Part shown: piece by piece, positions 13,098-59,018 of the stretch
How the letters are laid out: every line of letters begins with the position of its first letter
Position numbering within the stretch: position 1 is the stretch's first letter
NCBI RefSeq assembly: GCF_030064895.1
Contig: NZ_JASJEB010000016.1
Location: 1-59,018 of the forward strand
Length of the DNA stretch: 59,018 nt
From: Crocosphaera sp.
Lineage (GTDB): Bacteria > Cyanobacteriota > Cyanobacteriia > Cyanobacteriales > Microcystaceae
Direction: 5' to 3'
The notes under the pieces: model-generated
The model's database searches: none
What the model was told of the DNA's origin: nothing
The model's input: only the letters and a program-made list of their open reading frames with translations
Made by a program: the position numbers and the translations under genes

Positions 13098-13101
13098 GTA
13101 G
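11827..13101 (+). CDS. tnpB: TnpB, IS605-family RNA-guided nuclease
   Basis: 424 aa from ATG 11827; a TTG at 11815 is in frame but unlikely. TnpB is the ancestor of Cas12 and cleaves DNA guided by an RNA from the element's right end. An N-terminal helix-turn-helix-like region is followed by a RuvC-like nuclease: GVDFG (first Asp), ATEKLNIKAM (Glu) and CVMDRDAAAA (last Asp). A zinc ribbon, CPNC...CDCG, lies before the last motif. The triad is complete. The stop TAG (13099-13101) lies in the flanking vapC DNA, just past the element's right boundary, so the C-terminus is set by the insertion site. The guide RNA would overlap the 3' end of the gene. Confidence 0.92.
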   Translation: MLTTRRVTFRLYPTKKQEKILHDWRKLHQYLYNACLSHRITEYRHFGKNISYFDQQNCLPEFKECWTEYKQLGSQALQATCKRVDYAFQRFFKGLAKFPKFKSFQRYRGWTYPAKSGWKAHTTGDHGALELSNLGQIRMRGKARTWGQPTTCTVVWKNHKWYCSITIKCEVSRETGTGACGVDFGTLRALTFDDSTGIENPRFLAKSKDKIAKASRQLRRKRSPNRKKRTRASKRWKKARNKVSKLQNKVANQRQDWQHKVSTQIVSSNSLVATEKLNIKAMTRKAKKGSKRKKQKTGLNRNLLDVGISNITKLIKYKVKESRGVFVEVPIKIAPSQTCPNCGKRKKKELSERVHRCDCGCVMDRDAAAATVMLNYARGLGTNLLNRGSQSSEQKHTSKRCGGFAKDWELKRQKPQSKRSDDCG

Positions 13102-13294
13102 TTCATCATATAACTTTTTAACCAAGGGGTAGCTTCTTGGGGTAAATGAATAACTTGTAATAAGTTTCCTTCCATCATGGTAAATAAAGCATTAATTCCT
13201 ATCTTATTTTTACGAATTAACCAAAGAACTTCCGTTATGACTGCCCAACAGGTTATCAAAGGTGGTTGTAAGGTTTTGAGAGTATCAACACAAA
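13098..13294 (-). pseudogene. vapC: VapC PIN toxin, middle fragment (residues 26-90)
   Basis: The minus strand encodes CVDTLKTLQPPLITCWAVIT, then EVLWL and, at its end, PWLKSYMMNY. This is the core of a PIN domain including the conserved Glu of WAVITE. Its 5' side abuts the left end of the IS5 element (13295), with TTT at the junction on the coding strand. Its 3' side abuts the IS200/IS605 element. The missing N-terminus is found on the plus strand at 58815-58893, also followed by TTT and the same IS5 end. Confidence 0.9.
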
Positions 13295-13483
13295 AGACCT
13301 CTTGCAAAAGTGTTTCGTGGTATAATAAAAAGCTATTTATTTTAAAAGCAGCCATTCTGGTCAAGCGATCGCCACCACTCCAGAGAGCGATCGCCTAATC
13401 CCCAAAAATTAATTAAGTTTTAAAACAAGAATTGTTGTATAATTATTAAAGACAATTATTCAGCTAATTAAATTGATTTAACG

Positions 13484-13558
13484 ATGAAATATTGGCAAGC
13501 TAAAAAGTTAAAGCAAACTGAATTCAAGCGTTTGACAGGGGTTAAAAAAAACTTTTAG
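13484..13558 (+). CDS. N-terminal frame of the IS5-family transposase
   Basis: Encodes 24 residues, MKYWQAKKLKQTEFKRLTGV, then KKNF-stop. The FKRLTGV motif is the usual start of IS5-type transposases of cyanobacteria, where it continues into TF-x-x-MV. The continuation is found in the +1 frame from 13554 (FSLMVRII). The frame ends TTT TAG, where four T bases let the Phe tRNA re-pair one base forward just before the stop. This could be a +1 frameshift site. A simple one-base mutation is the alternative. Confidence 0.65.
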   Translation: MKYWQAKKLKQTEFKRLTGVKKNF

Positions 13559-13562
13559 TTTA

Positions 13563-14306
13563 ATGGTTCGGATTATCAAAGCTAAAGACCAAGAAAAAAA
13601 GAAACCAGGTCGTAAGCCAAAGTTAATTATTGAAGACCAGATTTTAATGACTCTTCAGTATCTAAGAGAATATAGAACTTATTATCATATTGGTAAAGAT
13701 TGGAAAATATCCGAGTCATCTGTCTGTCGTATTATTCATAAAATTGAAAATGTATTAATAAAATCTCGTCAATTTAGATTACCTGGAAAGAAAGCCTTAT
13801 GGCAAAGTTCTTCAGATGGAGAACTGGTAGTAATGGATGTTATGGAAAGTCAAATCGAAAGACCTAAAAAACGACAAAAACAGTTTTATAGTGGAAAACA
13901 AAAAGAACACACCCTCAAAACACAATTAGTAATTCAACAAAAAACTGGTCAAATTATGTGTTTACTTAACGGAAAAGGAAAAACTCATGATTTTAAACTA
14001 TTTAAAAATAGTGGGGTAAAATTTGGAACATTAATGAAAGTCATTGCTGATAAAGGCTATCAAGGTATAGCTAAAATTCATCGATTAAGTGAAACTCCAA
14101 TCAAGAAAAAGAAAGGGAAAAAGTTGACCAAAGAAGAGAAGAAATATAATCGGCAACTGAATCGATTAAGAATCACAGTCGAACATATTAATAGACGACT
14201 AAAAATCTTTAAAATTCTTTCTTATCCTTATCGAAATCGTGGTAAAAGATTCGGATTAAGAGCGAACTTAATAGCTGGACTTCATAACTACGATCTGGCT
14301 AATTAA
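13563..14306 (+). CDS. IS5-family DDE transposase, main frame
   Basis: 247 aa as an independent frame, or about 270 aa when joined to 13484-13558. The N-terminal half has KKPGRKPKLIIEDQILMTLQ and a helix-turn-helix (YYHIGKDWKISESSVCRII), typical of IS5 and ISL2-type transposases. The catalytic core follows with VVMDVMES (first Asp), KTHDFKLF, VIADKGYQGI (second Asp) and VEHINRRLK (Glu). All three acidic residues are present. It moves the 1224-bp element. A second copy lies mostly outside the window beyond 59018. Confidence 0.9.
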   Translation: MVRIIKAKDQEKKKPGRKPKLIIEDQILMTLQYLREYRTYYHIGKDWKISESSVCRIIHKIENVLIKSRQFRLPGKKALWQSSSDGELVVMDVMESQIERPKKRQKQFYSGKQKEHTLKTQLVIQQKTGQIMCLLNGKGKTHDFKLFKNSGVKFGTLMKVIADKGYQGIAKIHRLSETPIKKKKGKKLTKEEKKYNRQLNRLRITVEHINRRLKIFKILSYPYRNRGKRFGLRANLIAGLHNYDLAN

Positions 14307-14518
14307 TTTGTAAAAAAATGCATAAAATTTCTAGTTATTTGAGCTTTTAATCATTAGCTAGACTGATTTGTGCTGCCCATTTTTAATCATTTTTGTTTGT
14401 GGCGATCGCTCTCTACTATCTCATTCAAAAAAATCAGGAATTCTGGGTGTCTTGCCACGTAAAATTAGACAAAAAAATAGCATTCAATCATATCACAAAA
14501 GACTTTTGCAAGAGGTCT

Positions 14519-14773
14519 ATTACTAAGTTTCCCTTTGTAACCACGATGTAAATCAAGATGACACCCAGTATAGACACATATCAAGTTATCTTCTGATGAA
14601 TTACTGGGATCTCTATCCCAATGATGAGTTTGTAGTGTATATTGCATCCGCTTGGAAACTGTCCAATCTTCAGGGACTTTTTGACCAGGTTCAATACATT
14701 TTCGTCCACATTTCTGACAAGTCCAATTAGCTTTTTTCTTCAGTGCTAAACTGATTTCTTTCCAGTTGCTAGG
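14519..14773 (-). pseudogene. HNH endonuclease gene fragment truncated by IS5
   Basis: The minus strand encodes YPSNWKEISLALKKKANW, then the metal-binding pairs CQKC and CGRKC, then LQTHHWDRDPSNSSEDNL and GCHLDLHRGYKGKLSN. These are the Cys pairs and His residues of an HNH nuclease. The frame is cut at 14519 by the IS5 right end, so the C-terminus is missing. A short inverted repeat (14774-14852) sits at its N-terminal border and no clear start remains. If the proposed inversion is right, the missing end lies beyond the second IS5 copy, outside the window on the plus strand. Confidence 0.75.
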
Positions 14774-14852
14774 ATAGAGTTAAGATGAAGGCATTGATTA
14801 TTATAATTTTTAGGTTTAAAATGGGTGGAACAAATAGATTTAACTCTATCCA
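14774..14852. repeat. 79-bp MITE-like sequence with 12-bp inverted ends
   Basis: GGATAGAGTTAA (14774-14785) and TTAACTCTATCC (14841-14852) are perfect inverted repeats enclosing an AT-rich interior with no coding frame. It lies at the 5' side of the HNH fragment. It could be a very small MITE or a hairpin left by a decayed insertion. Confidence 0.6.
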
Positions 14853-14948
14853 CTTTTAATAATTTAATCCCTACATTGTATCAAACTTTTGTCAAAAAGC
14901 CGATATTAATGAATATTAAGAAATGTTACTTTTGCAATGGTGATTGAA

Positions 14949-15040
14949 CTACCCAATTGTCCCAATATGATTCTCCACTTTTTTCGATAAGGATAAGGGT
15001 TCTCGGACTAATCGATAGATTCTTTGGGGGAGAGTATTAT
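14949..15040 (-). pseudogene. IS1-family transposase C-terminal remnant
   Basis: The minus strand reads DNTLPQRIYRLVREPLSLSK followed by KVENHIG and a stop. This matches the pattern of InsB C-termini in cyanobacterial IS1 elements (LRQR-RLVRK-LSFSK-ENHIG). The frame is short, ends early, and on its other side runs into the dispersed palindrome at 15044. No terminal repeats are visible. The bases from 14853 to 14948 hold nothing recognisable. Confidence 0.5.
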
Positions 15041-15043
15041 CAA

Positions 15044-15076
15044 ATATTTGGAGAGCGAAGTTCGTTCCCCAAATAT
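15044..15076. repeat. dispersed palindrome, copy B (core CGAAGTTCG)
   Basis: A 33-base hairpin with arms ATATTTGG and CCAAATAT around GCGAAGTTCGTT. The outer arms extend further than in the other copies. It sits beside the IS1 remnant. It belongs to the same family as the elements at 5294, 22009, 30393 and 47992. Confidence 0.85.
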
Positions 15077-15215
15077 TCAATAAATAAATAAGTTGCGATC
15101 GCAGGTAATTGCGACTTAAAATAGATTTAAGTAACAACGTGTTATTTATGTTTTAAAATATTAAAATATAAATATTCATATCTAACTATTTTTTGGTTAG
15201 AGATTACATTAAAAT

Positions 15216-15243
15216 AAGGCAAAAATTTTCTTTTTGCCTTTTT
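15216..15243. terminator. bidirectional terminator hairpin
   Basis: AAGGCAAAAA and TTTTTGCCTT form a 10-bp stem with a 5-base loop, with T-rich runs on either strand. It lies 42 bases beyond the end of the minus-strand nucleotidyltransferase gene (stop at 15285) and probably ends its transcript. Confidence 0.75.
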
Positions 15244-15284
15244 ATTGTTAAACTCTGGTGGTATTAATGTCGTTGTATAAAAAA

Positions 15285-16067: not shown

Positions 16068-16072
16068 TGTAA

Positions 16073-16100: not shown

Positions 16101-16162
16101 ACCCTTGTAAATAAAATTATATGATATAATAGGAATATATTAAACAATAAATTAATAAAAAA

Positions 16163-16235: not shown

Positions 16236-16249
16236 CTGAAGAGTAGAAA

Positions 16250-16696: not shown

Positions 16697-19600
16697 ATGA
16701 ATAAAACAACAAGCTTAACGCAATTAGAAGCTATTAAGCTTATCAAAGATTTACAACAAAACCCAAGAAAAGTGACAGAAACCGAGAAGCAAATTCTCGG
16801 TTCTTTTGTAGGGTGGGGTACGGTGTACTCTGTTTTTAATTCTGATCACAAATGGGCAAAAGAAGCCTATGCAGAATTAGAAGAATTGTTGACTCCCAAA
16901 GAGTTAGCGATCGCCCGACAAGCAACGCTTTTCTCACACTACACAGACCCCAAACTTATTAAAGTTATCTGGGACGGTGTAATTGGAAAAGGTTTTGAAG
17001 GAGGATTAATTCTTGAACCTGGATGCGGTCACGGAAATTTTATGTCCTATCAACCCGACTCTCTTAAAAAGCAGTCAACCTGGGTTGGGGTAGAATATGA
17101 TCCAATCGCTGCATCCATTGCAGAGATGCTTAATCCCCGTGCAATGATCTATAACGACAGATTTGAGAATATCGATCTGCCAACTGACTTTGATCTTGTC
17201 ATTGGGAATGTCCCCTTTGGCGATATTCCAGTAGCCCATCTCAAGTATGCGCACCTTAAACCCAATCTTCATTGTTATTTCCTTCTGAAAGGACTTGATT
17301 TACTCAAAGAAGGTGGTCTAATGGTAGCCATCACATCCACTGGTTTTCTGGATAGCAAGGGTAATAAACAAGTTAGAGAAGCGATCGCCGAAAAAGCAGA
17401 GCTTGTAGGTGCAATGCGTTTGCCCAACACAGCGCATAAGTCTTATGCCGGCACCTGTGTAACGACAGATATTATTATTCTGCGTCGCAACAAAAAGGCC
17501 ACTAAACTAGAGCAAATATGGACAAAATCAGCACCTTTTGCACAATTGAAATGGGAAGCCATTGGCTTAAATCCAGCAGTTGTTGAAGATAATAAACTTT
17601 GGGACGCATTAGCAAAAGTTCTCCGAGAGAAAAGTCTTCATGAGGTTGCTGCTCTACCGGTAAATGGCTATTACGTCCGTAACCCCCAATATATTCTTGG
17701 TAACTTTACTAAGGATATATTATACGGGGGAGAACGAATGGCTGTAGCCCCTAATGAGCGTCCTTTAGATTTAGCCCTAGAGGTTGCCTTTAACAGCATG
17801 GGGCTAGTTTGTGACACCACTGTCACCGACTTGGCTACTATTCACTTTATACCCCCAGAGATGCAAAATATTCCTCTGGACTACTTTGTCCAATATGAGG
17901 AACTGTTTTATCAAAGGGGAGAACATAACTTAGTCCCCGTACCTTCTAAACAAGTCGAACTCATCAAGCATTTCTTGGCCATACATGACAATTTTTTGTC
18001 TGTGGTTGAGAGAATGAAATATGACGATGATGACTTTTTGTACGAAGAACAAAAAAAATTACTTCATGCTTATAAAGGTTTTATCCAAAAGTTTGGGTAT
18101 CTTCGGGACAACGAGAAAAAACTAAAGACAGATCCTCGCTATTACTTGCTCAATGGATTGGAGGTAGAGTCAGAAAAGCCTTACTGGGACTTGTCTGATA
18201 TCCCCAAATCCAAAAAAGTTAAGAAGCATTATAGTCCGGCTGATATATTTTTCAAGCGGACAGCTTCGCCCACTGTGGAACCAGAGATGGCCTACACGGC
18301 CAAAGACGCTTTGATTTATTCTCTTAACTACAAGGGGCAAGTTGATACGGATTATATCGCATGGCTTTTAGACATAGAAGAAGAGGAAGCGATCGCCCAG
18401 TTACAAGCAGAAGAGTTAATCTATTTCGATCCCCTAGAGGATCGTTGGCATACGGCCGAGGTTTACCTATCTGGCAATATTCTAAGGAAGCTGGACGACG
18501 CAATCAAATATAGTCTAACTACCAATGTAGCAGCATTGGAAAAGGTTCAACCTAAATTCATTTTGCCTCCTTGCTCACCTCAATTAAGAGCAGACCTGAT
18601 TATCGAATTAGGGGGAGAAGAAAAATGTGAAATTGACCCACAGGTAAGTATTCGAGTTAGGCTGGCTTCTCAGTGGATTCCTGTCCATATAAAGCGTAAA
18701 TTTATTGGTGAAATGATTAACAATCGATACTTTGATGGATTAAACTATTATCCTGCTTTAAGGGAGTATCAAATCACCAGTTCTTTTGACCATGATAAAT
18801 TTAACACTCTATATCGAAAAGCTTACCAAATTTTCGATTTGGCCTTGAACCTTAGAACAGTCAGAATTTGCGACACCATTTCTATCGATGGTAAAACAAA
18901 AAGCATTTTTAACCCAAAAGCGACGGCTGCGGTAAAAGCAAAAATTCAGGAGATTGAAAAATCTTTTTTGGAATGGCTGTGGACTGATTACCATCGATGT
19001 TTAGAGCTAACCAAGCTCTATAACGGTAAGTACAACTCAGAGGTTTTGAGGAAATACGATGGCTCTCATCTAAACCTTCCTCTTATGAACCCTGACATTA
19101 CTCTCAGGCCCCACCAGAAAAATGCTATCTGGCGCGCTATTCAAAACCAAACTACCTTATTTCATCACTTCGTAGGTGCAGGAAAAACCTTTGCCATGAT
19201 AGGAACTATGATGGAGTGGGTAAGATTGGGCTTAGCTCATAAGCCCATGATGGTAGTTGAAAACGCCACTATCGGTCAAATTGCCAAAGACTTTCGACGA
19301 ATGTACCCCACAGCCCGTATTTTGGTACCTGATTCTGAATCATTCAAAGCAGCTAATCGAAAACGGTTTTGCGGTGCGATCGCTTCTCAGCAATGGGACG
19401 CAGTAATTGTCACTTACGAGCAATTCAAAGCCATTGACGCTTCCCCTCAAGCCTATCAAAACTTCTTTGATCAAGAGCTTGAGGCATTAAAAAGTTTAGA
19501 AGTAGATGGCGTAAAATCTGCTGAACGTCGTGCAATGAGAATAGAGAAAAAACTTCGTTCTCATTATGCCGAAATTCAAGAACATCAAGATAACTGCATC

Positions 19601-21907
19601 TTCCTAGAACAACTAGGAGTTGATGCCTTGGTTTTTGATGAGTCTCATAAACTCAAAAATCTGTATTACGAGACAAAACTACAGGTAGCAGGACTACCTA
19701 CCAACAACAAATCAGGGAGGGCGTTGGATGCCTTTATCAAAATCCAACAGATGTTACGCAGAGGGAAAAAAGTGGTATTTGCCACAGCAACCCCTATTGC
19801 TAACTCTTTGATCGAACTATGGGTTGTCCTGAAATTTCTTGCCAACGATTCCATTTTGCAACCACTAGGTTTAGACTCAGTAGATGCTTTTATGGGAATT
19901 TTTGGCAACATTACAACTGGGGTTGAAATTACCCATAGTTCCAATTTTAAGATTAAAGAGCGTTTTTCGTCGTTTTTTAACGCTCCCGAAGTCTGTAAGC
20001 TGTATTATTCAATAGCCGATGTCATCTCTAGTCAGCAGCTAAAACTTAAGTTGCCAGAAGCTGAGACAATTCCTATCGAGCTACCTATGAATAGACAGCA
20101 AGAGGCATATCAACTGTATTTGACGGCTCGACTACACCGTATTGAAAATAGATCAGTTCAGCCGGACGTAGATAATCACCTAAAAGTTACTCACGAGGGT
20201 AGGCTATCTAATCTAGACATTCGTTTAGTTTTGAAAAATGGTGATAATTTTCAGTATTCGAAGCTCAATCAATGTGCGTTGAATATTTACAGGATTTGGT
20301 TAGCATCCAAATCAATCAAAGGAGTACAATCGGTCTTTTCAGACATTTCAACTCCTAAAAAGCACGAATTTAACTGCTATGCCTATCTTAAGGCAGTTTT
20401 GATCGAATTGGGCATCCCCCATAAGGAGATCGCCTTTATCCATAGCTATTCAAAGGAACAAAGACCGGCTCTTTTTGAAAAGCTTAACAACGGTCAGATC
20501 AGAGTTATTCTTGGCAGTACCAGCAAGATGGGGACTGGCGTTAATATGCAGCGGCTCATGCTTGCTTCACATTCCATCGATTGTCCCTGGCGACCATGTG
20601 ATGTCACTCAACGAGACGGCAGAACTATACGTCAAGGCAATCTTTTTCCCACTGTATTCATGTTCAGGTATCTCACTCAAGGAGTCAATGGTTTTCCTGG
20701 GTTCGATAGCTATTTGTGGCAAAAAATCCAACAAAAACAGTCTGGTCCAGCCATGATTGTTAACGATCCCTTCGGTAATCGTGTTATCGAAGACGCAGAC
20801 CCATTTTTGGCTTCTGCGGCCTTAATGAAGGCTATTGCTACTGGCGACGAACGCATCTTGAAAAGGGAAGAACTTAAACAAGAGTTCTCTGCTCTGCAAC
20901 TTGAATTTGATGGATGGTACTCTAATGTTTGCTATCAAATGAGTAAACTTCGAGGGCTAGAATCCAGGAAGGAAGATATAGAACGCTTCTTCTTGCCAGA
21001 CTTGGAAGACGATTTAAAATCTTTGCGATCGCTTCGGGAGGACTTTCCTTTGGAATTTTCTGGAAAAGTCTATAAAACGAAGGAGGCGATCAAAAAGTAT
21101 CTAAAAGAGCAAGAAATTGCTCTTAAAAAGACTTTTAAATCTCAACAAAACATTGCTCATTATGGTGATCTCACTCTAATGGTTAGAAAAGAAGGATTGA
21201 GAGATGAAATGGTTTATTATCTCAAAGGGGAAGGATTATACCGAGTTACTAAGCAAAATATTGTTGATCAAAAGCGACAGTATTTTGTCAATAAACTTCT
21301 TGGTTATCAGTCTGATAATCAAGAAGAACTTGATGAATGCGTTGAAAAAATTGCTGCTTCTCCTAAAATCGAAACCACTTTCCCAAAAGAAAAGGAAGCT
21401 AACTCTTTAGAGGCTCAAATTAAAGCTTTGGAACTAGAGTTAGGGATGGCACAAGAAGTCGATGATAATGGAGTTCCTTTAGAAGCTCCTAAAGTTGAAT
21501 TTGAGTCTCCTGCCAACATTGCTCATAAATATGAATTAAAACGAGGCAAGGTATCAGGAAACGATATCACTTCTGTTTTAATTGACGATCTCAAAGAGCA
21601 ATTGTTAACCGAATTACCAGACTGGATGGAAAAAATTAAATCTTCCATTTCAGTAGTAGAAGAATACTTCAATCATTCTTCGGAATCCATTGAAAATGGA
21701 ACTGAGTCTAACGAATTGACAGGTGATATTTTACAAGAATTGTACAGTAACCCCTGGAGTTTATTAGATGATGACTTTGATGACACCTCTGAATATTTTG
21801 AAGAGGAAAATGACATCGAAGAAGACGATTTAGACGAATCAGAGGTTGATCCTATCCAAGCTTTATATCAAGATCCCTGGAGCTTGCTGGAACAAATCCT
21901 AGAATAA
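16697..21907 (+). CDS. DarB-like fused N6-adenine methylase and SF2 helicase
   Basis: A 1736-aa protein. N-terminal methylase: GSFVGWGTV, LEPGCGHGNF (SAM motif I, about residue 105), GVEYDPIAA, and NVPFGD in place of NPPF (motif IV, about 170). C-terminal helicase: FVGAGKTFAM (Walker A, about 823), VFDESHKLKN (motif II, about 978), FATATPIAN, SKMGTGVNMQ and DVTQRDGRTIRQGN (motif VI, about 1305). An acidic tail ends with two repeats of the form LY-x-(N/D)PWSLL. This layout matches phage P1 DarB and the large methylase-helicases of plasmids and integrative elements, which protect incoming DNA from restriction. A role in anti-restriction or DNA transfer is therefore likely. It is followed by a terminator, so it forms a single-gene unit. 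Confidence 0.82.
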   Translation: MNKTTSLTQLEAIKLIKDLQQNPRKVTETEKQILGSFVGWGTVYSVFNSDHKWAKEAYAELEELLTPKELAIARQATLFSHYTDPKLIKVIWDGVIGKGFEGGLILEPGCGHGNFMSYQPDSLKKQSTWVGVEYDPIAASIAEMLNPRAMIYNDRFENIDLPTDFDLVIGNVPFGDIPVAHLKYAHLKPNLHCYFLLKGLDLLKEGGLMVAITSTGFLDSKGNKQVREAIAEKAELVGAMRLPNTAHKSYAGTCVTTDIIILRRNKKATKLEQIWTKSAPFAQLKWEAIGLNPAVVEDNKLWDALAKVLREKSLHEVAALPVNGYYVRNPQYILGNFTKDILYGGERMAVAPNERPLDLALEVAFNSMGLVCDTTVTDLATIHFIPPEMQNIPLDYFVQYEELFYQRGEHNLVPVPSKQVELIKHFLAIHDNFLSVVERMKYDDDDFLYEEQKKLLHAYKGFIQKFGYLRDNEKKLKTDPRYYLLNGLEVESEKPYWDLSDIPKSKKVKKHYSPADIFFKRTASPTVEPEMAYTAKDALIYSLNYKGQVDTDYIAWLLDIEEEEAIAQLQAEELIYFDPLEDRWHTAEVYLSGNILRKLDDAIKYSLTTNVAALEKVQPKFILPPCSPQLRADLIIELGGEEKCEIDPQVSIRVRLASQWIPVHIKRKFIGEMINNRYFDGLNYYPALREYQITSSFDHDKFNTLYRKAYQIFDLALNLRTVRICDTISIDGKTKSIFNPKATAAVKAKIQEIEKSFLEWLWTDYHRCLELTKLYNGKYNSEVLRKYDGSHLNLPLMNPDITLRPHQKNAIWRAIQNQTTLFHHFVGAGKTFAMIGTMMEWVRLGLAHKPMMVVENATIGQIAKDFRRMYPTARILVPDSESFKAANRKRFCGAIASQQWDAVIVTYEQFKAIDASPQAYQNFFDQELEALKSLEVDGVKSAERRAMRIEKKLRSHYAEIQEHQDNCIFLEQLGVDALVFDESHKLKNLYYETKLQVAGLPTNNKSGRALDAFIKIQQMLRRGKKVVFATATPIANSLIELWVVLKFLANDSILQPLGLDSVDAFMGIFGNITTGVEITHSSNFKIKERFSSFFNAPEVCKLYYSIADVISSQQLKLKLPEAETIPIELPMNRQQEAYQLYLTARLHRIENRSVQPDVDNHLKVTHEGRLSNLDIRLVLKNGDNFQYSKLNQCALNIYRIWLASKSIKGVQSVFSDISTPKKHEFNCYAYLKAVLIELGIPHKEIAFIHSYSKEQRPALFEKLNNGQIRVILGSTSKMGTGVNMQRLMLASHSIDCPWRPCDVTQRDGRTIRQGNLFPTVFMFRYLTQGVNGFPGFDSYLWQKIQQKQSGPAMIVNDPFGNRVIEDADPFLASAALMKAIATGDERILKREELKQEFSALQLEFDGWYSNVCYQMSKLRGLESRKEDIERFFLPDLEDDLKSLRSLREDFPLEFSGKVYKTKEAIKKYLKEQEIALKKTFKSQQNIAHYGDLTLMVRKEGLRDEMVYYLKGEGLYRVTKQNIVDQKRQYFVNKLLGYQSDNQEELDECVEKIAASPKIETTFPKEKEANSLEAQIKALELELGMAQEVDDNGVPLEAPKVEFESPANIAHKYELKRGKVSGNDITSVLIDDLKEQLLTELPDWMEKIKSSISVVEEYFNHSSESIENGTESNELTGDILQELYSNPWSLLDDDFDDTSEYFEEENDIEEDDLDESEVDPIQALYQDPWSLLEQILE

Positions 21908-22124: not shown

Positions 22125-22934
22125 ATGTTCCGAAAGGCCACAAAGAAAGATATTAAATTAAGGATTGCACTTAGTGGTATTAGTGGTTCAGGCAAAACCT
22201 GGACATCACTATTAATTGCCTCATACTTAGGCAAAAAAATTGGTCTAATTGATACTGAAAATGCGAGTTCAGAGAGATATGCCGACCAATTTAGTTTCGA
22301 CATATCAGATTTAAAAAATCACAAACCTGACTCTTATGCCAGAGAAATAAAGGCTGCTCAAGATTGCTACGATGTTTTAATTATTGATTCTTTGAGTCAC
22401 GCTTGGTTGGCTGAACTTGATTATGTTCGTAGCCAAAAAAACTCGTACACAGCATGGAGTTCTGTGCGTCCTAAAGAAAGGGAGCTTTTGTCAGCCATTG
22501 TTGAATGCAAGTGTCATTTGATCGCAACTATGCGCGAAAAAACAGATTATACTCTGGAAAAGAACGAAAAAGGGAAGCAAGTCCCTCGGAGAATTGGTAC
22601 TTCACCGATTCAGGCAAGCGGAATTGAGTACGAATTTGACCTATGGGGCAAGCTTGATTTACAGAACAATTTAAAGATTGAAAAATCTCGTTACTCTAAG
22701 ATTTCAGGACAAACATTTCCTAAGCCTGGAGCCGAATTTTGTAATCTTTTATTGGGTTGGATTTACCCTTGGACACTTTGGAGAAATGACCAGGACGCTA
22801 TTAATTGGGCAGCTAATATTCTACCAGATATGGAAATTAATGAAATCAAAAAAGAATACATTAATCTTCAAGCTGAAAAGGGAGAAAAGTTCCCAACTTG
22901 GGTTAACTATGTTCACAATTTAGACAAGTTTTAA
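22125..22934 (+). CDS. P-loop ATPase of phage AAA_24/Sak4 type
   Basis: A 269-aa protein. The Walker A motif is ALSGISGSGKTWTS (about residues 14-27), then KIGLIDTENASSERYAD, and Walker B is DVLIIDSLSHAW (about 85-96). This is the RecA-like arrangement of phage single-strand-annealing ATPases (Sak4) and related nucleotide-binding proteins. It probably acts in DNA recombination or replication of the mobile element. The C-terminus is helical with no known domain. It has its own promoter with an inverted repeat and is followed after 8 bases by an exported-type small protein, possibly in the same operon. Confidence 0.75.
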   Translation: MFRKATKKDIKLRIALSGISGSGKTWTSLLIASYLGKKIGLIDTENASSERYADQFSFDISDLKNHKPDSYAREIKAAQDCYDVLIIDSLSHAWLAELDYVRSQKNSYTAWSSVRPKERELLSAIVECKCHLIATMREKTDYTLEKNEKGKQVPRRIGTSPIQASGIEYEFDLWGKLDLQNNLKIEKSRYSKISGQTFPKPGAEFCNLLLGWIYPWTLWRNDQDAINWAANILPDMEINEIKKEYINLQAEKGEKFPTWVNYVHNLDKF

Positions 22935-47900: not shown

Positions 47901-47991
47901 TTATCAATTCTTCTTTAAATTTTTGTATTCAATCTTAACACTGATATCGATGAAAATTTATTAGTTCTTTGTCTTTTTTGAAAAAAGTGTA

Positions 47992-48018
47992 TTTGGGAAA
48001 CGAAGTTCGCTCCCCAAA
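47992..48018. repeat. dispersed palindrome, copy E (core CGAAGTTCG)
   Basis: A 27-base hairpin with arms TTTGGG and CCCAAA (one extra C on the right) around AAACGAAGTTCGCTC. It lies about 90 bases upstream of the start of the tape measure gene, in the gap before parA. The surrounding gap (47901-48455) has no gene. It also holds a TCTCG/CGAGA hairpin near 48102 and the inverted pair at 48156-48313. Confidence 0.85.
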
Positions 48019-50996: not shown

Positions 50997-53900
50997 ATGT
51001 TATCTTCTATCTTTGAGACGTGCGAACCCAGAGCGGAAATTTTATCAGGGGAATTAACCGTTGATTTATTCGCAGCGAAACTTCGTTTAGTTGTTGAAAA
51101 AAAAGCTCCCCAAGTTTATCAAAATCCCGATATTTTCTTTGCTAATACCTTTGCTACTGACGGTATAAAAACCTTACTAAGAGAAGTTTTTAGTCGTTTA
51201 ACAGGCAAAAGTTCAGGTTCCCCTGTCATTCGCTTAGAAACCAGTTTCGGGGGCGGTAAAACCCACGATGAAATTGCTCTATGGCATATTTGTCAACAAG
51301 GAAGAAATATTACTGGTTTAGAGCGTTTTGTGTCCGTTGAACTATTACCTACATCTCCTGTTCAAGTGGCAGCCGTTGATGGTCGAGATTTAGACCCAAT
51401 TAATGGCATTTACCACGAAGATACAGGCATAACCACTTATACTTTATGGGGAGAATTCGCTTATCAAATAGGAGGTATTGAAGGTTATCAATTATTACAA
51501 GCGAGTGATCAATCTGGGGTAAGTCCTGGTACTTCGGTTATGGAAAGATTGATGCAGGATAAGCCTACTGTTATTATTTTAGATGAAATTGCCCGTTATT
51601 TAAGTGCAGCTAAAGGGAAAGCAATTAAAGATAGTAATTTAGCTAAGCAGGTTATTAATTTTCTCTTTTCTTTAATGGACTTAGCTGCGGCCTGTAACCA
51701 TCTGGTATTTGTTTATTCTTTGGCTTCTTCAACGGATACTTTTGCTGAAGAAACCGAAGAATTTAGAGAGCAAATTCAGCAAGAATTACAAGAAATTTCC
51801 CGTGCGTCAGCTAGACAAGAACGGGTGTTGACCCCCAGTAATGATATAGAAATATATAATATTGTCAAACAACGGTTATTTGCTGCTGTAGATATCAATA
51901 TAGCAGAAGCGATCGCCACAGAATATTTGAGTGCGTATCGTACCAGTCAAGTTAATTTACCCGATGCGTCTAAAGATGCTAACTATGCTCAAGCGATCGC
52001 CCAAAGTTATCCGTTTCATCCTGAGTTATTTAGTTTATTAACCAAGAAAATAGCTTCTATTCCTGAGTTTCAGAAGACGAGGGGTGCATTAAGGTTATTT
52101 GCTCAGATTGTCCGTCACTTATGGCAAAATAAACCTAATTGGGTCTATTTAATCCATACTCATCATATTCCCGTTGGGGTTGATGAAGAAGTGACCAATG
52201 ATTTAACGTCTCGGTTGCAACGTTCCCCCATGCGTAACCCCATTGGGGCCGATATTTACAATGCTAACGGACGAGAAGCTTATGCTCAAGTCCAAGATCA
52301 AGAGTGGTTATTAGCAGGAAAACCTCCCTTTTCTACTTGGGTAGCAAGAACGATTTTTTTGCATTCATTAACCCAAGGAATAAGTTCCGGTATTCGACGG
52401 GCTGAATTAAATTTATCATTATTAACCCCTGGTGTCGAGATCGGTTTTGTAGATAAAGTGATTAACCAGTTGGTTTCAGTAGCTTGGTATTTAGATGATG
52501 ATCCTGTTACTAATTTATCTCGGTTTAAAGAGGAACCTTCTATCAATAAAATAGTAACAGAAGAAAAGGAACAAGTGGGGCGTACCGAGGCTAAAGAAGA
52601 TTTAAGAAATCGTCGGGATAGTATTTTTGCTAAAAAGTTTTTTACCTTAATTTCGTCTCCTGAAAGTCCTTCAGATGTAGATGATCGTCCCGATGATATT
52701 GCCTTATGTGTCATTGATTTTCAAGAAGGAACCGTTAACAGTTCCACTGATGAACCACCTTCTTTAGTGACACAAATTTTTGGGAATACAGGGGATGCTG
52801 GTAAGTTTAGATTATTTCGCAATCGTTTATTGTTTTTAGTAGCTAATCAAACTCAAATTGAAAATGCCATTGATATTGCTAGAGAATATAAAGCAATTAA
52901 AAATATATTAGGTTCACAAACTCGTTTAGAAGATTTATCCGAAAGTCAACAGAAACAATTAAGAGAACGAGAAGGGGCGAAAGATTTAGAAGTAAGAATT
53001 AGTTTAACTAATGCTTATCGTCATTTATTTTACCCTGATTCAGACCCTGTTAAAGCTCCCAATGGCTTAAAACATTATACCTTACCGGCACAAGAATCGA
53101 GTAGTGTTAAAGGAAAAAATAATCAACAAGACGTTGTTTTTAAAGCCTTAAAAGATTGTCAGAAAATACGTCCCGAAGAACCATTAAAAGCTTATGCACC
53201 TGCTTTTATTCTACAGAAAGTATGGCCAGTCGGGTTAGAGTATTGGACAACTAAATCATTAAAAGAAACCTTTGCCAAAGATTTAGGATTACGGTTTCTC
53301 ATAGAAGGGGAAATTTCGCTGTTAAGGGACACGATACGCAAAGGATTAGCAGAGGGTCATTGGGACTTAAAAGTAGGGCTTGAAGACGAAAATAAGGTTA
53401 ATCCAGAGGATGAAAATACCAGTCAGGGGTCAGAAGATTCCCTTAAGAAAGAATCATCCTCAACCCGTAGAAATCCTCGTTTATATATTAAAACAGAAGG
53501 ACAAAGTTTAACCCTTCCTAACACCATTGAATTTAGCGATCGCTTTATTTTATATCGACGGGGAATCCTACAACCACCGGAACCTCGTACTATTGAATTA
53601 AGCGCACAAGTTATCTCTGGAAATGAGAATAAACAAGTTAGAGTTAGATGGAAAGCAAAAGAAGCTTTAACGATTACTTTATATCAAAATAATGTTGAGA
53701 TAACGGGTAGCTTTTTACCTAGTGATGAATATGAATGTCAAATTAATCAATCTACGACGTTTAAGGTAGTTGCTGATTATGGTAGTGGGGAAATAGCAGA
53801 AAAAGAAACCACGGTATCTTTAGGAGGTGGAAAAGTTAGAGAAAAGGGGGGAACTTATGATACTGGGGGGTCAGTTATTAGTATTCCTATGGCTGATTAT

Positions 53901-54347
53901 AAACCCCCTACGTTATCGTTTGATGGGACAGTTGATAGAACCTTTAATGATTTTAAAGATCAATGTTTAGATAATAAAGTCCAAGGGGTTGAAAGTTTAG
54001 ATATTACGGTTAATTCTATTATGGATTATCGGAAGCTTGGAACCAGTTTATCTTTATTAAATCGACCTTTTTTTACTTTAATGATTGAACAAACTGTTAC
54101 CATTCAAGCACAAGGTCAATTTGTTCGTTTAGAATATCAAGGAGATAATCGAGGTTTTATGAGTTTCTTTAATCCTATTAATAGTTTACTGAATAGTCCC
54201 AATGCTCAAGCTACTATTAATTTGGCTTTATCTTTTGAGTTTAAGGATCTTGTTAAGTTTGATGGAACAGAAATTAATATGATTCACCAAGCTTTATCTC
54301 GTAATCCTGTGGAAAGATTAAATTTAACAACAAAAGTTAATTATTGA
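50997..54347 (+). CDS. DUF499 (COG1483) AAA+ ATPase of a methylase-linked defence system
   Basis: A 1116-aa protein. The N-terminus VDLFAAKLRLVVEKKAPQVY leads to an unusual Walker A motif, ETSFGGGKTHDEIALWH (about residues 81-97), and Walker B PTVIILDEIARYL (about 188-200). The central part covers the DUF499 ATPase fold, with YPFHPELFSLLTKKIASIPE and TRGALRLFAQIVRHLW. A linker, then a beta-rich C-terminal part (about 830-1116) with immunoglobulin-like strands, ends the protein. DUF499 ATPases are found beside DUF1156 adenine methylases and PLD/SNF2 helicases in predicted phage-defence loci. The methylase follows at 55559, and the helicase is at 6663, apparently moved away by inversion. A motor or sensor role is probable but unproven. 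Confidence 0.85.
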   Translation: MLSSIFETCEPRAEILSGELTVDLFAAKLRLVVEKKAPQVYQNPDIFFANTFATDGIKTLLREVFSRLTGKSSGSPVIRLETSFGGGKTHDEIALWHICQQGRNITGLERFVSVELLPTSPVQVAAVDGRDLDPINGIYHEDTGITTYTLWGEFAYQIGGIEGYQLLQASDQSGVSPGTSVMERLMQDKPTVIILDEIARYLSAAKGKAIKDSNLAKQVINFLFSLMDLAAACNHLVFVYSLASSTDTFAEETEEFREQIQQELQEISRASARQERVLTPSNDIEIYNIVKQRLFAAVDINIAEAIATEYLSAYRTSQVNLPDASKDANYAQAIAQSYPFHPELFSLLTKKIASIPEFQKTRGALRLFAQIVRHLWQNKPNWVYLIHTHHIPVGVDEEVTNDLTSRLQRSPMRNPIGADIYNANGREAYAQVQDQEWLLAGKPPFSTWVARTIFLHSLTQGISSGIRRAELNLSLLTPGVEIGFVDKVINQLVSVAWYLDDDPVTNLSRFKEEPSINKIVTEEKEQVGRTEAKEDLRNRRDSIFAKKFFTLISSPESPSDVDDRPDDIALCVIDFQEGTVNSSTDEPPSLVTQIFGNTGDAGKFRLFRNRLLFLVANQTQIENAIDIAREYKAIKNILGSQTRLEDLSESQQKQLREREGAKDLEVRISLTNAYRHLFYPDSDPVKAPNGLKHYTLPAQESSSVKGKNNQQDVVFKALKDCQKIRPEEPLKAYAPAFILQKVWPVGLEYWTTKSLKETFAKDLGLRFLIEGEISLLRDTIRKGLAEGHWDLKVGLEDENKVNPEDENTSQGSEDSLKKESSSTRRNPRLYIKTEGQSLTLPNTIEFSDRFILYRRGILQPPEPRTIELSAQVISGNENKQVRVRWKAKEALTITLYQNNVEITGSFLPSDEYECQINQSTTFKVVADYGSGEIAEKETTVSLGGGKVREKGGTYDTGGSVISIPMADYKPPTLSFDGTVDRTFNDFKDQCLDNKVQGVESLDITVNSIMDYRKLGTSLSLLNRPFFTLMIEQTVTIQAQGQFVRLEYQGDNRGFMSFFNPINSLLNSPNAQATINLALSFEFKDLVKFDGTEINMIHQALSRNPVERLNLTTKVNY

Positions 54348-54410: not shown

Positions 54411-54839
54411 ATGCAAGAGTTTCAACTAAGGATTTTACCATTAAAAGATAACGACTTTGCGTTAGAATTATATCAGTGTGCTTACAAAAAAGCAGGGGAG
54501 AAAAAAAGACCCGCAGCTAAACGCATTGGACGAGTTAAAGGTCATTCTTTAGTATTGATTCGTCAAGCAGTTTATCAAACTTTAAAAGCAAATAATTATG
54601 ACCCTAAAACATTATCTTATAAGCGTTCAACTCCTTACATTCTAAGTGAAGAATCAGGGGTTAATTTAGCTATTTTGTTTCAAGCTGTACAACCGTTAAG
54701 AAAAGAGTCTAAAATTGTTAATATTCGGGATGGTATAATGGCCATGAGTAATGAGGAGGCACATTATTGGTTTGCTAAGATTTCTAATGGTAAACGGAGT
54801 CCTGCTTTAAAAGCAATGAGAGTTTTATTAGGAGAGTGA
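54411..54839 (+). CDS. short companion protein of the DUF499/DUF1156 locus
   Basis: A 142-aa basic protein. The N-terminus is strand-rich (FQLRILPLKDNDFALELYQC), followed by KKRPAAKRIGRVKG. The C-terminus MSNEEAHYWFAKISNGKRSP, then ALKAMRVLLGE, is a pattern I associate with small proteins next to DUF499 ATPases (possibly DUF7680, not certain). No catalytic motif is visible. It lies between the ATPase and the methylase and is likely part of the same complex or operon. Confidence 0.55.
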   Translation: MQEFQLRILPLKDNDFALELYQCAYKKAGEKKRPAAKRIGRVKGHSLVLIRQAVYQTLKANNYDPKTLSYKRSTPYILSEESGVNLAILFQAVQPLRKESKIVNIRDGIMAMSNEEAHYWFAKISNGKRSPALKAMRVLLGE

Positions 54840-54929: not shown

Positions 54930-55238
54930 ATGACTTTAGAATTAAGTTTGACTTTTGATGAATCTCAGACTGATTTTTTAAATCAGTATCAAGACTATGG
55001 TTTTGATAGTCAAGAATCGATGATCCAATCTGCTTTAGAAAAGTTAAAACAAGAATTAGAGAATAAGGAATTAGATGAATCAGCTAAACTTTATACAGAA
55101 GTTTATGCAGAAGATATAGAATTACAAGAAGTAACTGAGTCTGCTTCTCTCATAAATACGACTCGTAACCATCAAGCTTTTCTTAATGGTTATTCACCTG
55201 AAGATGAGGGGTTATATGATGACTATCCAACCCGGTGA
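54930..55238 (+). CDS. antitoxin of a MazEF/PemIK-type pair
   Basis: A 102-aa protein. The N-terminus MTLELSLTFDESQTDFLNQY, then SQESMIQSALEKLKQELE, fits a ribbon-helix-helix DNA-binding domain. The acidic C-terminus (GYSPEDEGLYDDYPTR) would wrap the toxin. AGGAGA lies upstream. Its 3' end overlaps the toxin gene by 23 bases. It neutralises the MazF-like nuclease encoded next and probably represses the operon. The pair sits inside the defence operon, between the companion gene and the methylase. Confidence 0.75.
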   Translation: MTLELSLTFDESQTDFLNQYQDYGFDSQESMIQSALEKLKQELENKELDESAKLYTEVYAEDIELQEVTESASLINTTRNHQAFLNGYSPEDEGLYDDYPTR

Positions 55239-55545
55239 TTTTTGGGTAGCAGAAATTCCTTTTACTAATGGTGTGAGTAGCAAAAAGCGTCCTGTTTTAG
55301 TTCTTTGGTGTGATGGAAATGATGTTGTTGTTGCTGTTGTAACTTCTGCGCAACCTCGTTCTCAAACTGATGTAAAATTAAATGATTGGGCAATGAGTGG
55401 TTTAAGATTACCTTCAACAGTTCGTCTATCTCGGTTAGATTGTTTAGAAAATTCTCTTTTATTGGGAAAAATTGGACATATTTCTATTCAAGATTCTCAA
55501 ACAATTTTAAACGTTTGGAATTTATACGTTAAACCTCAATTTTAA
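55216..55545 (+). CDS. MazF/PemK-family endoribonuclease toxin
   Basis: 109 aa from ATG 55216 (or 108 from ATG 55219, better spaced from GAGGGG). PGDFWVAEIPFTNG, KKRPVLVLW, VVVAVVTSAQPR, STVRLSRLDCLENSLLLGKI and a closing LY-x-KPQF follow the MazF fold. The PGD, RPVLV and K-G/T-x-S-x-V-R-like segments are in order. MazF toxins cut mRNA at short motifs. It overlaps the antitoxin gene and is followed by the methylase after 13 bases. Confidence 0.85.
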   Translation: MMTIQPGDFWVAEIPFTNGVSSKKRPVLVLWCDGNDVVVAVVTSAQPRSQTDVKLNDWAMSGLRLPSTVRLSRLDCLENSLLLGKIGHISIQDSQTILNVWNLYVKPQF

Positions 55546-55558
55546 AGTAATTAAATCC

Positions 55559-58501
55559 ATGACTAACCCCAACCGTCCGAGAGTTTTTATTGAAAAGATT
55601 ATGCCTGTTAAGTTGTTAAATGAACAGGTTTATTATGAACATGGAGGCAACCCCTTTAAAGGGTTACATCGTTGGTATTCACGCAAACCTTTATCTTTCT
55701 CCCGTGCGTCGGTTTTGGGGTCAATTCTTCCTGCTGATATTTCTATGGAAGAGTTTGAATATTTATTAGGGTTACATACAGAGGAAGAGTTAGAATTATG
55801 GTTAAATTCTAAATTATCAAAGGAAGAAAAAGAAGAGTTAAGAAATAAGAATAAGGTTAGATTATATAAAACACCTCCCACTGAAAAACAAATTAACCGA
55901 GTTCATGAATTATGTCAGAAAATATGGGGTAAAACACCCACTATTTTAGATCAGTTTGCGGGTGGGGGTAGTATTCCTTTTGAAGCAGCTAGATATGGGT
56001 TAAATGTCTATGCTTCTGACTTAAATCCTGTGGCGGTTGTCACGATGAAAGCTGCGATGGAATATCCCTTAAAGTTTGGGGCAGACTTACAAAAGGATAT
56101 TGATAAATGGGTGAAATGGGTAGGTGATGAAGCTGAAAAAAGACTGGCTGAATTTTTCCCTTCTCCTGAAGGTGAAACGGTACAAAATTATCTTTGGGCG
56201 CATACCGTTGTTTGTCCAAACTGTCAGTCGGTTGTTCCTTTATCTCCTAATTGGTGGTTATATAAACGTCCAGAAAAGCAGAATTTACATAAATGGTGTG
56301 CAGTTAAACCTATACCTAATATTGAACATAAACGGGTTGATTTTGAGTTAATTAAGGGAAAAAAAGGTAAGGGGACAACAATTCAAACTGAGAATGGAGA
56401 TTTTGATCCCAAAGATAATAATACTATTAGTAGAGGTGTGGGTAAATGTTTATGTTGTGATAGTGTAATTGAAAATGAAATAATTATGCAATCTGCTGAA
56501 AATTTAACTCTTGGTTGTCAATTATATGCTGTTGCGTATAAAGAGGGTAAAAGTAGCTTACAATTTAGAATTCCTAATGAATTGGACTTGAAAGGATTTA
56601 AGAAAGCAGAAGATTATTTAAAAGAAAAAAACGATATTTTACAACAATTAAATCTTATTCCTATTGAATTATTACCTGATGGACAAGATTTAGATGAGCA
56701 AATTAGAATATTTTGTCCAACTTGGAAAGATATGTTTAACCCCCGTCAACTTCTAACCCTCGTTACTTACCTAGAAATCATCAACGAAGCTAAAACTAAA
56801 TTATATATTGAATATGAACCAGAAAAAGTAGAAGCTATTTGTACTTATTTAAGTTTAGTTATGGATAGATGCGTTGACTTAAACTGTAGGTTAACAGTAT
56901 GGAATACAGGAACAGCAACAACTATCAAAGCAAGCTTGACACATTCATTAAATTTGAACTGGAATTATCCAGAATTTCAAGGCTATAAAAAACTATGGAA
57001 TCAAATGGCTAAATTTGCAGATGGTTATACACAATTATTTAACTACTATAAAACGCTATTAACTAAAAACACTATAGATAAAACATCTAAAACTAACTCA
57101 TCATCCTTTGCCGATACCCCATTAGGAAAACTAGAAAGAAAAAAAAATGATTCAACCATCACCAATAATGACCAAAATAATAACGATGTAGAAATAGAAA
57201 ACAACTTACACAATAATTATGCACCAGAAATTGTTAACATTAACCTAGAATCAGCCGATAGTTTATATCACATTCCCGATAACACTTTAGATGCCATAAT
57301 TACAGATCCCCCCTATTATGGAACCATCCAATATGCAGAATTAAGCGACTTTTTTTATGTCTGGCAACGCAGAACATTAGGAGATATATTTCCCGACCTA
57401 TTCTATCAAGAATTAACGGACAAAGACAGAGAAGCCGTCGCCAACCCTTCCCGTTTCCGTAACATGGGAGAAAGCCCCGACTTCTTAGCCAAACGAGACT
57501 ATGAAGCTAAAATGGCCTTAGCATGGTCAGAAGCTTACCGAGTCTTACGGGATGAAGGAGTCTTAACGGTACAATTTAACCATAAAGACTCAGGGGCATG
57601 GGACACCCTAGCCAAAGCCTTAATCGACGCAGGGTTTGAAATTACCGCATCTTGGGCAGTTTCTACCGAAAACCCTCAAAACCTCCATCAAGCCAAGAAA
57701 AACAGCGTTTCTAGTACCGTTATCCTCGTCTGTCGTAAACGAGATCCCAACGCCCAACAAGCATGGTGGGATGACTTACGCCCCGAAGTCGCCAACCTCG
57801 TCGAACAACGGGCCCCCGAATTTGAAGCCAATGATATCACAGGCATCGACCTCTATTTAAGCGCGTTTGGCCCCGCTTTAAACGTCTTTAGCCGTTCCTA
57901 CCCCATCTTAGACAGTACAGGGGATGAAGTACGCCCCGAAGCTGCCTTCGCCGAAGCCCGAAAAGCGATCGCCTCTTACCGTTTCCAGACCTTAGTACAA
58001 ACGGACACCGCAGGGTTTGACCCCTTAACCCAATGGTATTTACTCGCCTGGGATGCCTTTAAAGCGCGAGAGTTCCCCTTTGATGAAGCCAGACAGTTAG
58101 CCTTAGCCATTGGGGGGTTCAACGTGACAGAATTAGCCAAAGGGTTTAAAGTGTTAGACTCAGCCAGTGGTACTTGTAAACTATTAACCCCTCAACAACG
58201 ACTGAAAAAACGGGCATTTACCACCGATGTTAACGAGTTTTCCGTGACTCATTTAGTGGATGGGTTACACGCTGCGATCGCCATTTATGAAGAGGAAGGA
58301 AACTTACAACAAGTGCGACAGTTTATGCAGAAAACAGGGTTAGTGAATAACGATAAATTCATGAAGACATTAGAAGTGGCATTTAAAGTTATTCCTACCA
58401 AAGTTAAAGAAAAAGATACCTTAGTTAACTTGTGGTTAGGTATTGATGAAATTAAAGCGAAAGTTACTTATCAACAGGGGGAATTATTTGAGTTTGAGTA
58501 A
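55559..58501 (+). CDS. DUF1156 (COG1743) adenine-specific DNA methylase
   Basis: A 980-aa protein. The N-terminal DUF1156 region spans residues 1-60 (RVFIEKIMPVKLLNEQVYYE, GNPFKGLHRWYSRKPL). The SAM-binding motif is LDQFAGGGSIPFEAA (about 124-138), followed by ASDLNPVA. Two zinc-ribbon-like Cys pairs, CPNC and CLCC, lie in the middle. The catalytic motif IV is TDPPYYGTIQYAELSDFFYV (about 581-600). The C-terminal part is helical, with FGPALNVFSRSYP. It transfers methyl groups to the N6 of adenine and in this context would mark self DNA. Ordered after DUF499, the companion and MazEF, it completes the right half of the defence set. G+C appears higher in its last third, perhaps a mosaic origin. 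Confidence 0.9.
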   Translation: MTNPNRPRVFIEKIMPVKLLNEQVYYEHGGNPFKGLHRWYSRKPLSFSRASVLGSILPADISMEEFEYLLGLHTEEELELWLNSKLSKEEKEELRNKNKVRLYKTPPTEKQINRVHELCQKIWGKTPTILDQFAGGGSIPFEAARYGLNVYASDLNPVAVVTMKAAMEYPLKFGADLQKDIDKWVKWVGDEAEKRLAEFFPSPEGETVQNYLWAHTVVCPNCQSVVPLSPNWWLYKRPEKQNLHKWCAVKPIPNIEHKRVDFELIKGKKGKGTTIQTENGDFDPKDNNTISRGVGKCLCCDSVIENEIIMQSAENLTLGCQLYAVAYKEGKSSLQFRIPNELDLKGFKKAEDYLKEKNDILQQLNLIPIELLPDGQDLDEQIRIFCPTWKDMFNPRQLLTLVTYLEIINEAKTKLYIEYEPEKVEAICTYLSLVMDRCVDLNCRLTVWNTGTATTIKASLTHSLNLNWNYPEFQGYKKLWNQMAKFADGYTQLFNYYKTLLTKNTIDKTSKTNSSSFADTPLGKLERKKNDSTITNNDQNNNDVEIENNLHNNYAPEIVNINLESADSLYHIPDNTLDAIITDPPYYGTIQYAELSDFFYVWQRRTLGDIFPDLFYQELTDKDREAVANPSRFRNMGESPDFLAKRDYEAKMALAWSEAYRVLRDEGVLTVQFNHKDSGAWDTLAKALIDAGFEITASWAVSTENPQNLHQAKKNSVSSTVILVCRKRDPNAQQAWWDDLRPEVANLVEQRAPEFEANDITGIDLYLSAFGPALNVFSRSYPILDSTGDEVRPEAAFAEARKAIASYRFQTLVQTDTAGFDPLTQWYLLAWDAFKAREFPFDEARQLALAIGGFNVTELAKGFKVLDSASGTCKLLTPQQRLKKRAFTTDVNEFSVTHLVDGLHAAIAIYEEEGNLQQVRQFMQKTGLVNNDKFMKTLEVAFKVIPTKVKEKDTLVNLWLGIDEIKAKVTYQQGELFEFE

Positions 58502-58560
58502 AGGATATATAAAAAAAAATTACAACGAAAACAACAAGTATTTATCAATGAGGTAAAAAC

Positions 58561-58818
58561 ATGAATCCACCGAATCCAAATAATATTAGTATTCCTCTTA
58601 GTCCCAGTTTAGAACAACGATTAAAAGAAGTTGCTCAAATGAATCAAAAAACAGAACAAGAATTAATCTTAGAAGCCCTTGAAAACCATTTAAAACAGTT
58701 CCCTACTACAAAAACTTGCTATGATTTAGCAATAGAATTAGGGGTGATTGGAGTAGCCGAAGATTTACCATCTGATTTAAGTACCAACCAAAGTCATTTT
58801 GAGGGATTTGGTGAATGA
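58561..58818 (+). CDS. vapB: VapB-like antitoxin
   Basis: An 85-aa protein. The ribbon-helix-helix part is ISIPLSPSLEQRLKEVAQ, then KTEQELILEALENHLKQ. The acidic tail DLPSDLSTNQSHFEGFGE is typical of antitoxins paired with PIN toxins in cyanobacteria. Its stop overlaps the vapC start in ATGA. The toxin is disrupted after 26 residues by IS5, so the antitoxin is now an orphan. Confidence 0.8.
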   Translation: MNPPNPNNISIPLSPSLEQRLKEVAQMNQKTEQELILEALENHLKQFPTTKTCYDLAIELGVIGVAEDLPSDLSTNQSHFEGFGE

Positions 58819-58893
58819 TGAAACAACAAATTTTAATAGATACTAGCCCCATTGTAGCTATCTTATCACCGAAAGATACTTATCATCAACTTT
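58815..58893 (+). pseudogene. vapC: VapC PIN toxin, N-terminal fragment truncated by IS5
   Basis: Encodes MMKQQILIDTSPIVAILSPK and then DTYHQL. The first conserved Asp (IDTS) of a PIN domain is present. The coding sequence runs straight into the IS5 end at 58894. The last three bases, TTT (58891-58893), are repeated on the other side of the break at 13292-13294 (minus strand), as expected for a 3-bp target duplication. Joining the pieces gives HQL-CVDTLKTL in frame. Confidence 0.9.
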
Positions 58894-59018
58894 AGACCTC
58901 TTGCAAAAGTCTTTTGTGATATGATTGAATGCTATTTTTTTGTCTAATTTTACGTGGCAAGACACCCAGAATTCCTGATTTTTTTGAATGAGATAGTAGA
59001 GAGCGATCGCCACAAACA
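58894..59018. mobile_element. IS5-family element, copy 2, partial at the window edge
   Basis: These 125 bases are the exact reverse complement of 14394-14518, the transposase-distal end of copy 1, starting with the terminal repeat AGACCTCTTGCAAAAGT. The rest, including the transposase, lies beyond the window. Its orientation is opposite to copy 1, so recombination between the two copies inverts the DNA between them. Confidence 0.93.

Follow-up and report, generated by a model that had tools for sequence, protein, structure and literature searches.

The window analysed here is the whole of contig C67 (59,018 nt), one of the 188 contigs of a 5.5 Mb draft assembly. It encodes the core genes of a DUF499-centred defence cluster, together with a vapBC pair whose vapC is in pieces and insertion sequences at the breaks. 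The features are listed below in order of position.

6663-9872, minus strand: hmaA, open frame of 1069 aa, a SNF2/DEAD helicase whose N-terminal part has a PLD-like stretch (HxK..D..GSxN)
9953-10765, minus strand: ParB-like gene between the vapC tail and hmaA (Pfam ParB_N 4.2e-4 and HTH_23 3.8e-4, both below cut-off)
11100-11258 (bounds approximate), minus strand: vapC tail, matching the PIN gene of Picosynechococcus PCC 7003 (L086) with 49% over 43 aa
11259-13109 (bounds approximate): IS200/IS605-type insertion in vapC, with TnpA at 11366-11776 (minus) and TnpB at 11815-13101 (plus)
13110-13294, minus strand: vapC middle, 61 aa, reaching IS5 copy 1
13292-13294: left target repeat AAA, paired with the TTT at 58891-58893
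13295-14518, plus strand: IS5-family element copy 1, 1224 nt, transposase ORF at 13563-14306
14519-14779, minus strand: fragment of an HNH-like gene, cut off before its C-terminus where it meets IS5
14519-58893: block of 44,375 nt whose orientation in the contig is unlike the inferred original one, judging from the inverted repeat, the order in relatives and the junction flanks
50997-54347, plus strand: hmaC, DUF499 ATPase, 1116 aa (Pfam DUF499 1.3e-35; PADLOC HmaC 3.7e-100)
54411-54839, plus strand: DUF7680 gene (Pfam DUF7680 9.3e-46)
54930-55545, plus strand: MazEF-like pair (54930-55238, without a family; 55186-55545, PemK_toxin 2.5e-9)
55559-58501, plus strand: hmaB, DUF1156 DNA methylase, 980 aa (Pfam DUF1156 5.5e-8, N6_N4_Mtase 5.6e-7; PADLOC HmaB 2.8e-77)
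58561-58818, plus strand: vapB-like antitoxin gene, 85 aa (RelB-like 8e-5, below cut-off), a homologue of which adjoins a vapC homologue in locus L195
58818-58893, plus strand: vapC start, 25 aa, ending at IS5 (58893|58894)
58894-59018, minus strand: IS5 end fragment, 125 nt, at every position the same as the right end of copy 1; the contig stops here

The cluster is the known Hma, or DUF499-centred BREX-related, system. Hma (helicase, methylase, ATPase) was named as a candidate system by the authors of PADLOC in their text on it (PMC8565338), and the passages on Hma in PMC12839542 treat it as a DUF499-centred BREX relative, rename it among the DUF499-centred BREX-related (BR) systems and cite an experimental study as confirming the role of the helicase in phage defence. 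The same passages define a Type-2 with an HKD nuclease and a DUF3780 gene, and a Type-3 with PglZ. Neither DUF3780 nor PglZ was found among the window proteins scanned with Pfam, and the PLD-like motif of hmaA was read by eye, Pfam giving no PLD match. The DUF499 ATPase, the DUF1156 methylase and the SNF2-type helicase are all present in the window as full-length open frames. The helicase matched Pfam SNF2-rel_dom (2.4e-18) and Helicase_C (5.9e-15), NCBIfam phospholipD_antiphage at 1e-104, which is below the cut-off, and the PADLOC models PbeA (1.1e-78), PLD_Helicase (1.9e-70) and HmaA (1.2e-55), the first two scoring above HmaA; four near full-length matches at 59-69% were found in relatives. 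These proteins still match the system models, but the genes are not clustered in an operon-like manner in contig C67, where hmaA lies ~41 kb from hmaC and in the opposite orientation.

The PIN-type (VapC-like) gene is interrupted twice, by IS5 and by the IS200/IS605-type element (Pfam Y1_Tnp 1.8e-40; OrfB_IS605 3.3e-15; Cas12f1-like_TNB 1.8e-11), while the vapB-like gene is open. The second of these breaks, made by an element with both TnpA and TnpB, was missed in the earlier sequence-only reading of this contig. Uninterrupted vapC homologues exist, and the middle piece has matches in 7 of 97 other genomes (E<=1e-3). Ten loci were chosen by a match to the middle piece, and when the pieces were searched apart the start lay flush before the middle in nine of them, with scores of 40 to 83 against <=-2 at the next best offset; the tenth (L088, Euhalothece natronophila, E 0.66) has no flush start and its VapC shows no clear match to that of the window. 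Among the first 188 loci, start and middle were paired at L195/L119 (one place) and L086 only, and seven more homologues were found later. The PIN gene of Picosynechococcus PCC 7003 gave weak matches to each of the three pieces (start 20 bits, middle 26, tail 45). IS5 is therefore inserted in vapC.

Copy 1 of this IS5 sits between the vapC middle and the HNH-like gene. Its transposase scored 192 bits with NCBIfam NF033581 (cut-off 140) and its terminal inverted repeats match at 40 of 48 positions, which places it in the IS5 family. The sole long inverted repeat found in the window, 14394-14519 / 58893-59018 (126 nt, 100% identity), is made up of 125 nt of IS5 and one base of matching flank. 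A second IS5 copy had been proposed at the right end; what is visible there is 125 nt, identical to the end of copy 1 and stopping with the contig. A second whole copy is therefore putative, and the far end formerly given for it, 60117, is an extrapolation beyond the sequence. At least 11 places in the same genome match the IS stretch, and among the 40 of 75 candidate places scored in this assembly there was no full-length copy other than that of contig C67 and none that yielded the far flank.

The three bases on the left of copy 1 are AAA and those on its right are ATT, and so there is no target repeat around the copy as placed. The left flank does however match the far flank TTT (58891-58893; AAA in the other orientation), and the earlier observation that the vapC start (to 58893) and the vapC middle (to 13294) both abut IS5 and have TTT/AAA in common was seen at both junctions. 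For comparison, ten stretches with this IS were fetched from the genus, of which seven, from two genomes, had both ends recognised and three (L262-L264) did not. Target repeats of 3 bp were present at four of the seven copies (TTT, ATT, ATT, TCA), whereas identical flanking 3-mers are expected by chance at about 1 in 50 at this base composition; the other three had unequal flanks, so mismatched flanks alone are not rare. As same-genus copies of this IS make 3-bp target repeats, the left and far flanks are a proper target-repeat pair and copy 1 as placed has none. The target-repeat flanks have thus been exchanged on one side.

At the right border of copy 1 lies the HNH-like fragment, for which Pfam gave no match and the HNH label was read by eye. 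Its DNA is 87% and 81% identical to sequences in two same-genus genomes, with homology beginning exactly at 14519, and in both the gene continues past the position of the IS border. The missing gene end was not found in this assembly with a degenerate pattern built from the gene end of the relatives (44 matches at <=3 mismatches, where the reversed control gave 29; the two closest had 2 mismatches), nor was the far flank found with 9 kb of a relative's contig (40 of 211 candidates scored). Beyond the gene the sequences of the two relatives are alike for a short stretch only, and they therefore do not predict the far flank. The HNH-like gene had been counted as a member of the defence array, which did not hold up: it lies ~44 kb from the cluster once the block is flipped, and no cluster gene was matched when the window was compared by blastn with the two same-genus contigs of 17 kb that have the close homologue.

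Among relatives the genes run hmaC-DUF7680-hmaB-hmaA, all on one strand. Forty-five loci were tabulated and one (L085) was dropped, having its four genes at the same coordinates as L043; of the remaining 44, L051 is without hmaB and 11 have <5 kb downstream of it (three of these show hmaA), leaving 32 with >=5 kb beyond hmaB. Within 3.7 kb downstream of hmaB and on the same strand, hmaA was present in 29 of the 32. It was missing in L047 and L054, where hmaB is truncated, and in L049, where hmaB is whole and 8 kb beyond it are without hmaA. In 34 of 38 loci the gene hmaC is found upstream, likewise on the same strand, and of the 36 tabulated loci showing both hmaC and hmaB, 33 have DUF7680 between the two. 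All loci were found through hmaB, so the sample favours places with that gene, and in two genomes (G071 and G051) hmaA and hmaC are on different contigs, which says nothing either way. In the same-genus genome G006, decayed copies of hmaC, DUF7680, hmaB and hmaA lie on one strand within 5.5 kb, which is the uninverted order, and a vapB match of 36 nt separates hmaB from hmaA. The DUF7680 protein of G006 is 99% identical and full length while the core genes have decayed, and a word search of PMC12839542 gave 0 occurrences of DUF7680. Picosynechococcus PCC 7003 and Euhalothece natronophila both have, between hmaB and hmaA, a toxin-antitoxin pair that includes a PIN or VapC gene.

The distance between the two IS5 borders was confirmed as 44.4 kb, and flipping 14519-58893 restores the cluster order of the relatives, unites the two flanks that share a target repeat and joins the two vapC pieces that are flush in homologues. 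The junction flanks, the flush vapC pieces, the same-strand cluster of relatives and G006 together show that the cluster was once contiguous and that the order in the contig is inverted between IS5 borders. The proposal of one ancestral cluster that this flip would restore is thereby upheld, and the comparison with related genomes that had been suggested for it has been run, with the uninverted order as its outcome. GC skew along the window showed nothing clear on the orientation of the block and appears to follow gene strand.

A real IS5-mediated inversion in the cell is the most likely explanation, held with modest confidence, and it is from the above that we infer both the turned order in the cell and its mechanism. 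The original order was hmaC-DUF7680-mazEF-hmaB-vapBC-ParB-like-hmaA, all on one strand, a cyanobacterial DUF499-centred defence cluster. IS5 entered vapC with a 3-bp target repeat, and the IS200/IS605 element entered the same gene separately. A second IS5 copy presumably sat, or was placed, in the HNH-like gene ~44 kb away in inverted orientation, and the 44.4 kb between the copies could then have been turned either through their recombination with each other or through an inverse transposition of the first, leaving hmaA ~41 kb from hmaC in opposite orientation with the three core genes still open. The junctions predicted by homologous recombination of inverted IS5 copies are also those predicted by an inverse intramolecular transposition that takes the vapC copy into the HNH-like gene, and the two are indistinguishable here. 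Counting against an inversion are the length of the second copy seen, 125 nt, with the contig end there, and the far flank, which was not found. The unequal flanks at three of the seven same-genus copies, the repeat lengths of the assembly described below and L049 count against it too.

The main rival, less likely than an inversion, is an assembly misjoin: two IS5 copies in the uninverted order would have been collapsed, and a wrong exit would have connected the vapC middle with the HNH-like gene and left a broken end at the vapC start. The same four IS5 junctions belong to either order, inverted or not, and only the way they are paired across the identical 1.2 kb tells the two apart. The end of contig C67 falls 125 nt inside the repeat, and at 21 of 71 tested contig ends, its own included, 121-139 nt were common to another place. 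No exact repeat >139 nt was present twice in 83 stretches of the assembly (1.23 Mb), and for this reason the 1.2-kb IS was probably not phased by the short reads; the pattern looks like the output of graph assembly from short reads at a word size of ~140, which by itself would not phase the IS. Contig ends elsewhere also match inner places of contigs, by 119-137 nt, and reading through one copy while breaking at another is thus not special to the window. The smallest contig seen is 5,237 nt among 105 lengths of 188, suggesting that a length filter was applied, and a short piece carrying the far flank may have been dropped. Against a misjoin, contig C67 runs through the whole IS, and assemblers usually break at such repeats and seldom pick a wrong exit. 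As a control for the choices of the assembler, other repeats that had been run through were sought, and the places found were without clear IS ends and gave no usable case.

In the same-genus genome G007, contig C323 has two direct IS5 copies ~27 kb apart (at ~683.8 kb and ~711.3 kb; L257 and L258) with unmatched flanks. The inner flanks of these copies are joined around one IS5 with a TTT/TTT target repeat on contig C88 (1-1240, L255), the flanks agreeing at 16/16 nt on the left and at 99% over 116 nt on the right. This junction is that expected of a 27-kb circle excised or integrated via IS5, or else reflects assembly ambiguity.

It is improbable that both orientations coexist, with inverted IS5 copies recombining back and forth or strains in the sample differing, so that the contig represents one form. 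The two copies are identical over the comparable 125 nt, which permits recombination, and G007 shows two junction combinations of the same IS flanks in one assembly, but no alternative junction was found among the 40 of 75 candidate places scored in the assembly studied here. More speculative still, and very doubtful, is a reversible switch in which recombination of the IS5 copies couples the helicase-nuclease to, or uncouples it from, the methylase and ATPase, so that the defence operon of the replicon would be co-expressed at one time and split, and perhaps silenced, at another. Two unrelated IS5 insertions without rearrangement, copy 1 having entered between its present flanks, form the least probable reading, for although non-matching flanks occur at three of the seven same-genus copies, the left and far flanks are parts of one gene (flush in 9 of 10 loci) with a common 3-bp repeat, and homology on the right flank stops exactly at the IS.

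If the preferred IS5-mediated inversion is real, hmaA would no longer be co-transcribed with hmaB and hmaC, a co-transcription that the two vapC insertions may already have weakened. As all three are full-length open frames, their products could function in trans if expressed. Inversions between inverted IS copies are common in bacteria, and the insertion and inversion event is in itself ordinary. The window has inverted IS ends at both borders and a target repeat common to the left and far flanks, as such cases would, and it differs in that 125 nt of its second copy are seen and a fourth flank was not found. A real inversion would add to the cases in which the genes of a multi-gene defence system were scattered by an IS rearrangement, and it would offer a natural test of function, in the absence of co-transcription, for the DUF499 ATPase, DUF1156 methylase and helicase-nuclease. 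A system split at contig level can also reflect an unresolved IS, and tools based on gene neighbourhood could call such a system incomplete.

Compared with Hma as described, the locus has the ATPase, methylase and helicase as long open frames matching PADLOC HmaA, HmaB and HmaC, which form a same-strand cluster in relatives, but in the window hmaA is far from hmaC and on the other strand, and its helicase scores higher with models other than HmaA. The cyanobacterial clusters also differ in adding DUF7680 and often toxin-antitoxin genes between the core genes, in the loci where annotation was seen. The nearest parallel in layout is plasmid pEu3 of Euhalothece natronophila (NZ_CP042329.1), with hmaB, a VapC-family gene, TnpB and hmaA on one strand; it differs from the window in that its vapC, beside which TnpB lies, has a gene annotation and shows no clear kinship to the window's vapC. 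Its hmaC-DUF7680 gap is ~8.6 kb and includes a CyRepA1 plasmid replication gene, which is another split of the cluster.

Contig C67 encodes ParA and ParB and may thus be a plasmid or part of one. No plasmid records near-identical to window 34000-48000 were found, an Rfam scan gave nothing at gathering score, and the two junction patterns had 0 matches each in viral_contigs. The HIP1 sequence, GCGATCGC, was counted 44 times in the window, which, with the organisms whose defence genes are closest, is the ground for regarding the contig as cyanobacterial. At the left end, positions 1-110 recur at 93% in contig C68 (3998-4107), with further short matches (window 1327-1422), so a repeat-like stretch is reached at this end as well. 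On the minus strand, 30462-47900 is one open frame of 5812 aa, the N-terminal half of which matches families of phage tail length tape measure proteins (PHROG 1533, 8.3e-67; Pfam PhageMin_Tail, 9.1e-33). The same contig encodes a ribonucleotide reductase and, at 22125-22934, an ATPase with weak similarity to Sak4, and on the basis of these genes, the tape measure frame and ParA/ParB, contig C67 may belong to, or be a remnant of, a phage-plasmid. A 1736-aa protein at 16697-21907 (plus strand), in which Pfam recognises a methylase part of Eco57I type alongside a helicase part, is weakly like the mad2 and PLD_Helicase models, and is possibly a second restriction-like system on this contig.
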